Both the position numbers and the translations under genes were made by a program. Under the pieces are notes generated by a model that saw only the letters and a list, made by a program, of their open reading frames with translations, searched no databases and had not been told where the DNA came from. Shown here piece by piece: positions 1 to 3,020 of a DNA stretch of 64,000 nucleotides. The stretch comes from Qipengyuania aurantiaca (lineage in GTDB: Bacteria > Pseudomonadota > Alphaproteobacteria > Sphingomonadales > Sphingomonadaceae), in NCBI RefSeq assembly GCF_019711375.1, contig NZ_CP081295.1:806001-870000 (forward strand). Direction: 5' to 3'. Position 1 is the stretch's first letter. Every line of letters begins with the position of its first letter.

Positions 1-1
1 T

Positions 2-1315
2 AATGCTCCAAATTTCGACTCAAGGTTCAAAAAAAAGAAGGGCTCTGCATTCCCCCTTTTTAGAGATCCGGTAAACAAGATTGGTTATCCGATATCGAAA
101 AATCGCTTATTCAACTATTATACGAGCCTCCTCAAACATTGTCAGCCTATAGTCGATAAGGAATTGGGGTACCATTATCCTCTTTTCTCCGCCGATGGCA
201 CTTGCCTTTATGACCTTCATAGCTTGCGGGTGACTGTAATCACAACATTGTTGGATCACGGTGTCCCAGCATATGTTGTTCAATGCCTGGTCGGTCATAA
301 ATCACTGATCATGACTTGGTACTATTACGACAGCACCGACTATAAGGTCCATTCTGCGCTCCAAGCGGAATTTGAGCGACGTAAGAGACAAATCTCGGGC
401 CTGACGTCGACAAAAGAGATTGATCAATCCTTATATTCCGACGCAGTTAGCTTTCGAGATGAGCAAGACTATGCGGGCGTTGAGCTTCTCAAATCTCACT
501 GCGAGACCAAAACTTCCTTTGACGTATTCTCGCACGGAGTTTGCCCTAGCGGCGATTGCAACCACGGGGGTAAGCGCGTGATGCCGGGGAAATATGCGCC
601 AGTGTGGCGGCCAAGAGCCTGCTCCTTTTGCCGTTACCGAGTTACTGGGCCCGCCTTCCTAAATGGTCTTGTCCAGCGTTCAAACACCCTTCTTTGGGAA
701 ATCAAGACTTCGGTGAGGAAGGAAAAGGACCTATATTGCTTGATTGAAGATGAAGAAGATGCTGGCCGCGAGGTCGCTCATTTGCGGTCAAGCGTCCGAC
801 AAGAGCAGGAACTTCGCGATCACCTGTTTGAGGAGTGGGCGCTTGAAGTCCGAACTATTATGGATTGCAACCGTAAACTCAAATCTTCGGCGGGATTGCA
901 GGCAGATCTAGGAACGGAGATCTCGGAGAAAAGTCTCACAACTCATGATTCAGAACCGCGGCTACGCGAGGTTCACGACTTTGAGTTAGCACAGCGGCTT
1001 TCGAAAGATGCCGAGATTGTTCACTCGGCCTTGGAACTTCCACCGGACGTTATTCTCTTTAGAGATAAGGTATTAAATCGCATCGCGAATACCAATGATG
1101 TTGGCGCCTACTTCTTCAATCTGAAACCTGAAACTGCCAAGAAAGCTCTAGATCTTTTTGGCGAGCTACTCGTAACACATTGCGGCATTGAGGAGCTTGA
1201 TGCGCTGATCGAAGGCACGATGCTGATTGAGGAAATTCCCGAACTACGGGACGCTCTCGTCGCCAACAATATTCCGTCACCTGGACAATTGCCGCCCCCA
1301 GCAAACCTGAACTGA
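2..1315 (+). CDS. Tyrosine recombinase, GmtZ-like, 5' part outside the window
   Basis: The frame is open from the left edge, so only the C-terminal part of about 437 residues is visible. The catalytic half of a phage-type integrase is readable: His-x-x-Arg at 218-229 (LHSLR), the GHKS box near 293-304, and a Tyr cluster at 320-328 with the nucleophile expected about nine residues after the GH histidine. Downstream lies a cysteine cluster (HGVCPSGDC, later CSFCRYR) followed by TGPAFLNGL, then a charged helical tail. That cysteine plus GPAFL layout recalls the VPA1269/GmtZ integrases of gamma-mobile-trio islands; this match is from memory and not verified. Its stop overlaps the next start by one base, so the two are co-translated. 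It probably catalyses integration and excision of the island. Confidence 0.72.
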   Translation, partial: NAPNFDSRFKKKKGSAFPLFRDPVNKIGYPISKNRLFNYYTSLLKHCQPIVDKELGYHYPLFSADGTCLYDLHSLRVTVITTLLDHGVPAYVVQCLVGHKSLIMTWYYYDSTDYKVHSALQAEFERRKRQISGLTSTKEIDQSLYSDAVSFRDEQDYAGVELLKSHCETKTSFDVFSHGVCPSGDCNHGGKRVMPGKYAPVWRPRACSFCRYRVTGPAFLNGLVQRSNTLLWEIKTSVRKEKDLYCLIEDEEDAGREVAHLRSSVRQEQELRDHLFEEWALEVRTIMDCNRKLKSSAGLQADLGTEISEKSLTTHDSEPRLREVHDFELAQRLSKDAEIVHSALELPPDVILFRDKVLNRIANTNDVGAYFFNLKPETAKKALDLFGELLVTHCGIEELDALIEGTMLIEEIPELRDALVANNIPSPGQLPPPANLN

Positions 1316-2145
1316 TGTCAAATACCGGTGACTCAAGAGAGGACACCTTGGCATTCCTCCATGCGCAGGTCGAGGCAACACACCATTCACAAATCCGCGA
1401 AACAATCCTCGACGCGATCTCGGAAGCGGAAAGGTACGACGATCCGAGGCCCCTCGCCACCTTGCGACGTACTGTAATGGCCTGTGAAGCGATCCTGAAT
1501 GGAGACGCTGCGAAAATGTCCCGGCAGTTTAATATGTTCGAAGGGAGGTTCAGGAAAGACCGGCCTGCCTTAAACTCGAAAGCGGTCGAAGCCTATATCA
1601 AGTTGCGATATCAAAGTGACGTTTCCAAAGGAGTTACGGACTCCGAATGGACTGGCCCAAGAGCAGAAACACTGCGTCGAGGCGGTCCTGCAAGTCGTTA
1701 TCTTTCTGCAATGCGGGACTCGCAGAAAAGCGGGGGGATTCGGCGCAGGTCAAACCGTCAAAGACAGCTCGAAGAGATCATTTCCAAGCTAAAGCGGGAA
1801 GAAGATCGGTACGTCCTCAGAGAAGAACTTGCTAGAGGTTCTCTAGCTATCCGCCGATTTTCAATACTGAGAAATTCCTTTGCCAAAGCCAACCCCGCGG
1901 TCGACATTGACAACCTAGAATCATACGATGTGAAGCACCGCCAAAAAAGCATCGCGTCAAACAGCGCTCATTTAATTCCAGCAATGATCTCTCTTAAAAA
2001 TAGACTGCAAGACAACGATCAACTTCGGCACTTCGGTCTTGAAACTGACGGGAAGCGGCTGAAGACCACTTCCGGTCAGCACGTCATTCCGAAGGAGGAG
2101 TACGAAATCCTGATCGAGCTATTAGACAAGGCAATAGAACGCTAA
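1315..2145 (+). CDS. Unknown island protein, GmtX-position companion
   Basis: A 276-residue protein encoded directly after the recombinase, with a one-base overlap. It is soluble-looking, rich in Arg, Lys, Glu and Ser, with no signal peptide or membrane segment. The first half contains a helical stretch and a [10 protein letters not shown] patch near residues 117-126; the second half has charged helices likely to coil. I do not recognise a catalytic motif. In gamma-mobile-trio islands a GmtX protein lies next to the GmtZ integrase, and that position is the only basis for the comparison. It may be a recombination directionality or DNA-binding accessory factor. It converges with the gapR paralogue and overlaps its end by four bases. 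Confidence 0.6.
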
Positions 2146-2399
2146 ATCATACCTAGTGCTGCCATATAGGTTTCCAGGATAGCTTCCTCCTCCTGATAAT
2201 CTTCCTTCTTTTTCTTCCTGATTTTCAGGATCGTACGAATTGCTTTTGTATCAAAGCCGCGGGCTTTTGCTTCCGCCATCACGTCTCGGATGTCGTCCGC
2301 GATACCCTTCTTTTCCTCTTCGAGCCGCTCGGCCCGCTCGATGAGTAGGCGCAGCTCGTCGCCCGTGTTTGTACCTTGTCCGCCTATCGCATCAGCCAT
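2142..2399 (-). CDS. gapR: Island-borne GapR-like (DUF2312) nucleoid protein
   Basis: An 85-residue DUF2312 protein of full family length. The family includes GapR, a small DNA-binding nucleoid protein essential in Caulobacter that binds overtwisted DNA. The sequence shows the usual order: N-terminal leucine-rich helix ([19 protein letters not shown]), a DDIRDV turn, and a basic C-terminal segment ([16 protein letters not shown]). A clear AGGAG ribosome site precedes the ATG. Codons are A/T-richer than in host genes, as in the recombinase. It differs from the host copy at many positions, for example [12 protein letters not shown] against YAEAKAVGY. It sits at the end of the island beside the truncated host gene, so it probably supplies GapR after integration. 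Confidence 0.88.
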
Positions 2400-2456
2400 T
2401 TATTAATTCTCCTAAATACCCCGCGTCACACCGATAGATCACATGCGACGCGGATA

Positions 2457-2479
2457 ACTAAATAAAAACTTTACTAAAT
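2457..2479. repeat. Direct repeat pair near the island end
   Basis: ACTAAAT occurs at 2457-2463 and again at 2473-2479, sixteen bases apart, in the A/T-rich strip between the island gapR and the boundary at 2500. Repeats like this near an element end can be arm-type binding sites for a recombinase or its accessory factor. That reading is inference; A/T-rich sequence can give such repeats by chance. Confidence 0.3.
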
Positions 2480-2497
2480 CACGCGAATTGGGGTCGC

Positions 2498-2626
2498 TTA
2501 GTAGCCCACGGCCTTCGCTTCGGCGTAAACGTCGCGGATATCGTCGGCGATCCCTTTCTTTTCTTCCTCGAGGCGTTCGATGCGCTCGATCAGAAGGCGC
2601 AGGCGGTCGTCGGTGGCTTCGGCCAT
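2498..2626 (-). pseudogene. gapR: Truncated host gapR (DUF2312), cut by the island
   Basis: This frame encodes 42 residues that match the N-terminal half of a sphingomonad-type Gap[21 protein letters not shown], then [22 protein letters not shown] and a stop. Family members continue past Gly-Tyr with a basic segment of about 35-40 residues that is needed for DNA binding; here TAA follows at once. The sequence before the break has host codon use and G+C, the sequence after it is island-like. The start, leader and upstream neighbour DUF1244 are intact. The missing 3' half is expected at the far end of the island, left of the window. A 42-residue peptide may still be made and could dimerise through its first helix, but function is doubtful. 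Confidence 0.82.
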
Positions 2627-2708: not shown

Positions 2709-3020
2709 TCAGTCCACGCGATTTTTCGCGATGCTCGCGTCCATACGCGCCAATTGCTCTTCGGTCGCGGGTGTCTGGCGGGTCGCCTTCCACTCGTCTT
2801 GCGGCATGCCGTGGATCAGCTCGCGCGCGGCCAGCTTGTCGCCTTCGAAGCCCGCATCCATGATCCAGTCGGCGAGGCAATTGCGGCAAAAACCGGAAAG
2901 GCCCATGAGATCGATGTTCTGCGCATCATGGCGATGCTGCAAGTGGCGCACCAGCCGGCGAAAGGCCGCTGCCGCTACGTCATCGGGGAGGTTTGCGAGG
3001 GCGTCTGAATTGGTATCCAT
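2709..3020 (-). CDS. DUF1244 family protein
   Basis: A 103-residue DUF1244 protein, a small conserved alphaproteobacterial family of unknown function. The hallmark is visible: an N-terminal helix ([15 protein letters not shown]), then [18 protein letters not shown] with a Cys-x-x-Cys pair near residues 45-48, then the GMPQDEWKA turn. The ATG at 3020 is chosen because AAGGACA precedes it at good distance; an upstream-extended frame overlaps pyk and is not credible. The gene is divergent from pyk (49 bases between the start codons) and followed 82 bases later by the truncated host gapR, with which it was probably co-transcribed. The DUF1244-gapR pairing is common in this order and helps to recognise the interrupted gene. 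Confidence 0.9.

Follow-up and report, generated by a model that had tools for sequence, protein, structure and literature searches.

We analysed a window of 64,000 nucleotides (C1:806001-870000) of the genome of Qipengyuania aurantiaca, which is one contig, C1, of 2,825,489 bases. The left edge of the window lies inside an island of foreign DNA, and the right end of the island, together with the host gene in which it ends, is made up of the following features, the last of which lies beyond the window.

1..1315, plus strand: C-terminal 437 residues of a GmtZ-like tyrosine recombinase (whole gene 1134 aa, C1:803911-807315)
1315..2145, plus strand: third gene of the integration module, 276 aa, without an assigned family
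2142..2399, minus strand: complete gapR of the island, 85 aa (Pfam PF10073, 108.9 bits, columns 2-72)
2400..2497, minus strand: 98-bp leader that separates the island gapR from the host 5' half and contains a stem-loop at about 2420-2454 (folding)
2490..2500, no strand: right-end inner arm GGGGTCGCTTA, the inverted counterpart of the left-end AAATCGACCCC, containing the stop codon that closes the host frame
2501..2506, no strand: 6-bp core GTAGCC, spanning gapR codons 41-42 (Gly-Tyr), with its second copy in the left end at C1:754065
2501..2626, minus strand: 5' half of the host gapR, 42 codons (2498-2626 with the stop)
2709..3020, minus strand: host DUF1244 gene (Pfam PF06844, 93 bits), the native neighbour upstream of gapR
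C1:753957-754073, minus strand: 3' half of the host gapR, 54.4 kb leftwards

The 42-codon host frame ends in AVGY followed by TAA, where the TAA (2498-2500) is island DNA, and it aligns to columns 2-38 of the 72 columns of the Pfam GapR_DNA-bd model. The leader behind it has a GC content of 42%, and the island gapR, which lies 98 bp downstream in the same direction, has AGGAG shortly upstream of its ATG and differs in composition from the host 5' half (GC 51.6% and GC3 58% versus GC 61.9% and GC3 79%). The original prediction had read the same arrangement from the window, namely a host gapR that stops at Gly-Tyr, A/T-rich sequence beyond the break, and a complete gapR of other codon use with its own ribosome site, and all of this was borne out. 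A search of the genome with the island GapR found three places: the island copy, which is the only complete GapR among them, the cut 5' half, and C1:753960-754070 on the minus strand, which spans query residues 48-84. The missing 3' half of gapR, whose absence from the far end of the island would have spoken against the original prediction, was thus found there beside the core repeat; the repeat had been expected within 2498-2510 and is the 6 bp at 2501-2506.

The two host halves lie on the same strand and keep their order, and joining them across the core gives an uninterrupted 78-residue GapR that is identical over 78/78 residues to the GapR of six congeners. The joined gene shows 88-95% DNA identity to the congener copies (20/20 compared), and the left and right flanks of the island abut at the core in 20/20 congener loci compared. 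A search of the genus returned a GapR match in 58 of 60 genomes, among which ours is the only one with gapR in two pieces. The uninterrupted gapR that had been predicted for relatives lacking the island is present in 56 of the other 59 genus genomes, which match at least 77 of 78 residues; one further genome has a partial match (63 residues), and a GapR match is absent from two, G330 (99% complete) and G340 (87% complete), where gapR loss, a contig break or another insertion may lie behind the absence. Among the matches listed, at least 297 of 298 family genomes have a GapR match, as do 278/278 of good quality, and the DUF1244 gene adjoins gapR in many relatives. The split is more than chance, because the 3' half lies on the same strand, the two ends share a core, and the arrangement recurs in two other genera (see below).

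From core to core, the island measures 54,436 bp, and its GC content is 58.0% compared to 64.2% in the two flanks measured. The right end reads GGGGTCGCTTA-GTAGCC at window positions 2490-2506, and the left end, from C1:754065, reads GTAGCC-AAATCGACCCC. Closing the element into its predicted circular form would give GGGGTCGCTTA-GTAGCC-AAATCGACCCC, in which an inverted repeat (GGGGTCG...CGACCCC) flanks the 6-bp core. Inner ends that pair equally well were found in 16 of 5000 random pairs from the island and in 30 of 5000 for the Kiloniella element described below; in the A. vermicomposti element the inverted repeat was not above chance (1472 of 5000). The island has the marks of a site-specific integrative element, in that a short core recurs in direct orientation at its two ends and the empty site is contiguous in relatives; it is apparently mobile, splitting the host gapR and bringing a complete gapR with it. 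A tRNA or tmRNA as the landing site was ruled out, as none was found in the window or in loci L004-L007.

At its right end, the island carries a module of a 497-aa GmtY-like recombinase, the 1134-aa GmtZ-like recombinase and the 276-aa protein, in that order; hereafter we refer to these genes as the trio. Residues R597, H770, R773, H796 and Y805 of the GmtZ-like protein, which we take to be the active site, are identical in 11/11 aligned homologues, and the active-site residues of the GmtY-like protein were read by eye. The third gene, in the place of a GmtX, matched no NCBIfam family at E <= 0.1 in a scan whose control, G229 (below), covered GmtY and GmtZ, and the structural model of its protein is poor (mean pLDDT 57). 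Its stop codon overlaps that of the island gapR at window positions 2142-2145, and the two genes therefore converge tail to tail with no gap. The two recombinases are related in sequence to those of gamma-mobile-trio (GMT) elements, which were reportedly described by Mahata et al. in Nat Microbiol in 2024, and judged by their scores they stay below the NCBI cut-offs for that family: the GmtY-like protein scores 141.1 bits against NF040693 (cut-off 340), and the GmtZ-like protein 177.1 bits against NF047926 (cut-off 600).

Searches for the recombinase beside split gapR genes elsewhere, as the original prediction had proposed, yielded two further cases, both in draft assemblies. The first, in G129, presumably Allosphingosinicella vermicomposti, has a GmtZ-like protein 49% identical to ours, and its trio adjoins a gapR 3' half that starts at Gly-Tyr. 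The other end, 46,436 bp away, holds the gapR 5' half and a complete 86-residue gapR, which is the only complete one among the three GapR matches of that genome; the two ends share an 8-bp core. The second, in G845, presumably Kiloniella litopenaei, belongs to another order, the Rhodospirillales. There, the gapR 5' half breaks off after Gly-Phe on a contig of 6456 bp, which also holds a complete gapR of 105 residues starting 102 bp after the stop of that half, and a second contig carries the trio and the gapR 3' half; the assembly leaves the two contigs unjoined, and the core repeat is imperfect (GGTTTC versus GGCTTC). By eye, the 6456-bp contig also holds a DUF1244-like gene. A fourth GapR match in Kiloniella is diverged (73 bits), and thus the island copy is not the only GapR of that genome. 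Between the Kiloniella trio and gapR 3' half (L070:15580-17216) we recognised by eye a WYL-type regulator and an IS200-type transposase, and the end of the element therefore seems disturbed.

The three elements have their trio genes in the order Y-Z-third gene in adjoining frames (3/3). The third protein of our island is 35% identical to its A. vermicomposti counterpart, which in turn is 28% identical to that of Kiloniella. Both further elements also fall below the NCBI cut-offs, at 152.4 (A. vermicomposti) and 159.8 bits (Kiloniella) for GmtY and at 190.9 and 172.9 bits for GmtZ, compared to 366.1 and 710 bits in G229, which served as control. Common to all three elements is a complete gapR that immediately follows the host 5' half in the same direction, at a stop-to-start distance of 98 bp in our island, 73 bp in A. 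vermicomposti and 102 bp in Kiloniella. By contrast, the trio lies at the 5'-half end in our island and at the 3'-half end in A. vermicomposti and Kiloniella. The constant position of gapR and the variable position of the trio imply that the placement of gapR follows the host promoter rather than the recombinases, which would point to read-through from that promoter.

GmtZ matches are rare, occurring in 3/298 genomes of the family, 2/396 of the order (an overlapping draw) and 1/61 of the order of Kiloniella. A search of the class found matches in 20/385 genomes, of which only those in our genome and Kiloniella exceed a short motif; the other 18, whose 16-26 bits come from a short stretch near the catalytic motif, were not counted as cases. 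The third match in the family, G229, is a GMT by the NCBI cut-offs, and its one GapR match is complete. It was likewise not counted, being a true GMT located elsewhere in its genome, and its intact gapR implies that not every GMT element targets gapR. The G229 trio, which is above the NCBI cut-offs, lies in the region L032:6262-14678, and the part of that region beside it, L032:13980-14678, is, by eye, what we take to be the C-terminal part of a RarA/MgsA-type ATPase; the G229 GMT may be inserted in a gene of this type. No GmtZ relative was confirmed in viral contigs with one-protein or three-protein queries. Among plasmids, 31 records match GmtZ in part, all at less than 60% identity (23-27% among the 20 listed) and none over 80% of GmtZ. 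A split at the Gly-Tyr site was found in none of 16 family genomes that were re-read (15 with at least three GapR matches, and G007). In three genomes (G075:C10, G244:C3 and G007:C1) GapR is broken near profile column 20 into two frames, in what look like frameshifts. Weak matches to GapR columns 2-50 in G024, G109 and G170 (genus g25) lie on small contigs and are repeated within a genome, and possibly belong to another plasmid or phage gene family.

We compared the divergence of the island gapR with that of the recombinase. A profile built from the three GmtZ-like proteins found eight further homologues, four of which lie on contigs equal in bases (6648, 23,872, 6634 and 1,161,294) to contigs with an island-type GapR; the GapR side of this pairing consists of the longest contigs among the 120 hits listed, and linkage is read from the equality alone. 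Across the resulting seven pairs (four paired by equal contig size alone), the GmtZ and GapR identity matrices correlated with r 0.95, and 12 of 5040 permutations were as good; without Kiloniella, r was 0.82, and 12 of 720 permutations were as good. This correlated divergence suggests that gapR is a resident gene of these elements. The protein is under constraint, given a pN of 0.123 and a pS of 0.80 between the gapR genes of our island and the A. vermicomposti island. Repair of the 3' end of gapR alone was ruled out, as the island gapR begins at a start of its own and diverges from the host gene along its whole length. The stem-loop of the leader is also present in A. vermicomposti; compared to shuffled sequences, the fold reached z -2.25 in our island and z -0.77 in A. 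vermicomposti, where it is not clearly better. A simple scan, which is a weak test, found no sigma-70-like site on the island gapR strand in 2100-2800 that might give the island copy a separate promoter.

In a tree of 33 GapR rows, including 23 hand-chosen from the 120 hits listed, the island GapRs of our genome and A. vermicomposti group with other sphingomonad GapRs and away from the GapRs of both hosts, and the Kiloniella island copy groups with the GapR of its host; 13 of the 30 inner forks are weak, and the Kiloniella rows carry a long-branch warning. Among 66 loci drawn from the genus and family searches, with a bias towards the best Pfam scorers, 63 have a GapR nearer to our host type and three are undecided. 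Twelve of 23 family genomes picked for weak Pfam scores have a GapR nearer to the island type beside pyruvate kinase. Six of these are clear (74-82% identity, also beside DUF1244) and six are less so (61-69%); a thirteenth such call was a weak second match. The matches listed include just one GapR per genome for ten of the 12, and one of the 12 carries the protein of Stakelama saccharophila. Judged by these identities and gene neighbours, the island GapR type is native to other sphingomonad genera, and integration would therefore replace the host GapR by a foreign-type one that is 71% identical. Searches of 50,697 phage and 72,556 plasmid records also found GapR-like proteins, in 40 and 12 records, respectively. 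They align with about residues 30-85 of the query, and several are annotated as hypothetical and one as a virion structural protein; P0007, a 131-residue protein with two GapR stretches in tandem, may be an internal duplication or an assembly artefact.

Our home-made gene caller predicted 49 genes in the island, and the Pfam scan covered 33 of them, two in part. The cargo recognised in this way includes acetyl-CoA synthetase, a sodium:solute symporter, a sucrose-phosphatase/glycosyltransferase protein, a sulfotransferase, a DUF294 protein, a hybrid histidine kinase, an HSDR_N protein, a ResIII helicase and an Xre/MbcA-type protein. Relaxase, type IV secretion and phage structural genes were absent from the 33 of 49 genes scanned (two in part), and Padloc gave weak or generic matches only. 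In the left part of the island, at C1:757223-758491, a fragment of a GlpX fructose-bisphosphatase (profile 202-307 of 307) stands directly before a class I fructose-bisphosphate aldolase and is possibly the remnant of an older cargo operon.

We assign a probability of roughly 0.8 to the reading that a 54.4-kb integrative element enters the host gapR at Gly-Tyr and supplies a complete gapR that can be read from the host promoter. What the sequence itself offers for this reading are the boundaries, the cut gene and its far half, the second complete copy, the recurrence in three genera and the correlated divergence of recombinase and gapR; the circular form, recombination by the trio proteins, read-through and an island GapR that does the work of the host GapR are what we infer. 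The GmtY-like and GmtZ-like recombinases and the third protein would act on a circular form whose site is the inverted repeat around the core, and the element would enter the chromosome at gapR codons 41-42. Insertion would cut gapR, with the island's stop codon closing the first 42 codons of the host, and the host promoter could then read through into the element gapR, as this lies 98 bp downstream in the same direction. The integrated state would have the complete gapR of the element, and excision would rebuild the host's own, leaving one complete gapR per cell in either state. We put forward more tentatively a stronger version, in which integration obligatorily exchanges the native GapR for one of the element's lineage under the host promoter and the swap helps the element. 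If this version is true, a nucleoid protein would make up the core set of the family along with the two tyrosine recombinases and the third protein, and the supercoiling and replication protein of a carrier would stem from the element's lineage up to the point at which excision brings back the old one.

Alternatively, the island gapR may be mainly a working part of the element, for instance as an architectural factor that serves excision or transfer, or by silencing the element's genes, with the cut in the host gene as a tolerated side effect. We consider this unlikely as the main explanation. It is consistent with GapR divergence that tracks recombinase divergence and with GapR-like genes on phages and plasmids that have no known link to a split host gene, but a part needed for recombination requires no placement behind the host 5' half, where the element gapR lies in 3/3 cases even with the trio at the other end. 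The two roles are compatible with each other. Much less probable is that an ordinary element landed beside an older second gapR, or acquired one once, with no lasting partnership: GapR paralogs are indeed common in the family, with at least 15 of 298 genomes (ours and G129 aside) having three or more matches, some of them fragments, but one layout at one codon site in three genera, the correlated divergence, and the location of the island gapR within the boundary wherever both ends were seen argue otherwise. An inversion or misjoin that split gapR is barely credible even with two of the assemblies being drafts, because our genome is one contig of 2.83 Mb, the DNA separating the halves has 58% GC compared to 64% in the flanks, strand and order of the halves are preserved, and three genomes agree.

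Mobile elements usually are held to spare needed genes or to restore the end of a gene that they enter. Here, the gene of a widespread chromosome-organising protein appears to be interrupted internally and substituted in full, the substitute being a foreign-type ortholog in two of the three cases. In its mode of action, the integrative element that we propose most resembles the Tsy elements (Faure et al. 2023, PMC10293859), which, according to the available part of that source, have two tyrosine recombinases that are both required, form a circular intermediate, and insert within the conserved comM, whose halves flank the element. Its target, in contrast, is gapR rather than comM, which marks Tsy together with a zinc-finger N-terminus of TnsF, and a replacement comM is not mentioned in the available part of that paper. 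GMT elements, known here through the NCBIfam models and the accessible portion of PMC12715929, share with our island the order of GmtY and GmtZ, a third gene that follows them, and the location of the trio at an end of an island with varied cargo. By contrast, our recombinases score far below the NCBI cut-offs (141 of 340 and 177 of 600 bits), our host is an alphaproteobacterium, and our island lands in gapR and carries gapR, whereas the true GMT of G229 (366 and 710 bits) leaves gapR intact.

The SXT/R391 ICEs, which are conjugative and integrate in the 5' end of prfC (available text of PMC2791158), share tyrosine-recombinase integration in a conserved housekeeping gene, but an internal cut combined with a complete foreign ortholog is not described in that text. 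A review of integrative mobilizable elements (PMC5704250, as far as accessible) covers site-specific integration in protein genes, and a table note there distinguishes internal sites, which leave a disrupted gene, from 3' or 5' ends, which leave an unchanged or almost unchanged product; our island, in contrast, disrupts an internal site and supplies a complete copy. This combination is not described in the portions of PMC10293859, PMC2791158 and PMC5704250 that were available. Erythrobacter phages are also mobile elements of a related host with their own GapR, which the 2025 paper, in its available part, reports as the first GapR in a phage (PMC12185513), but that GapR is an extra copy, and interruption of the host gapR is not described in that part. 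A literature search over titles and the openings of abstracts returned no description of an element that splits gapR, and we claim no absence beyond that scope.

If borne out, the arrangement would represent a safe use of an important gene as a landing site and the exchange of a core gene between lineages in one recombination event. It would also provide natural GapR swaps for asking which functions of GapR are interchangeable.
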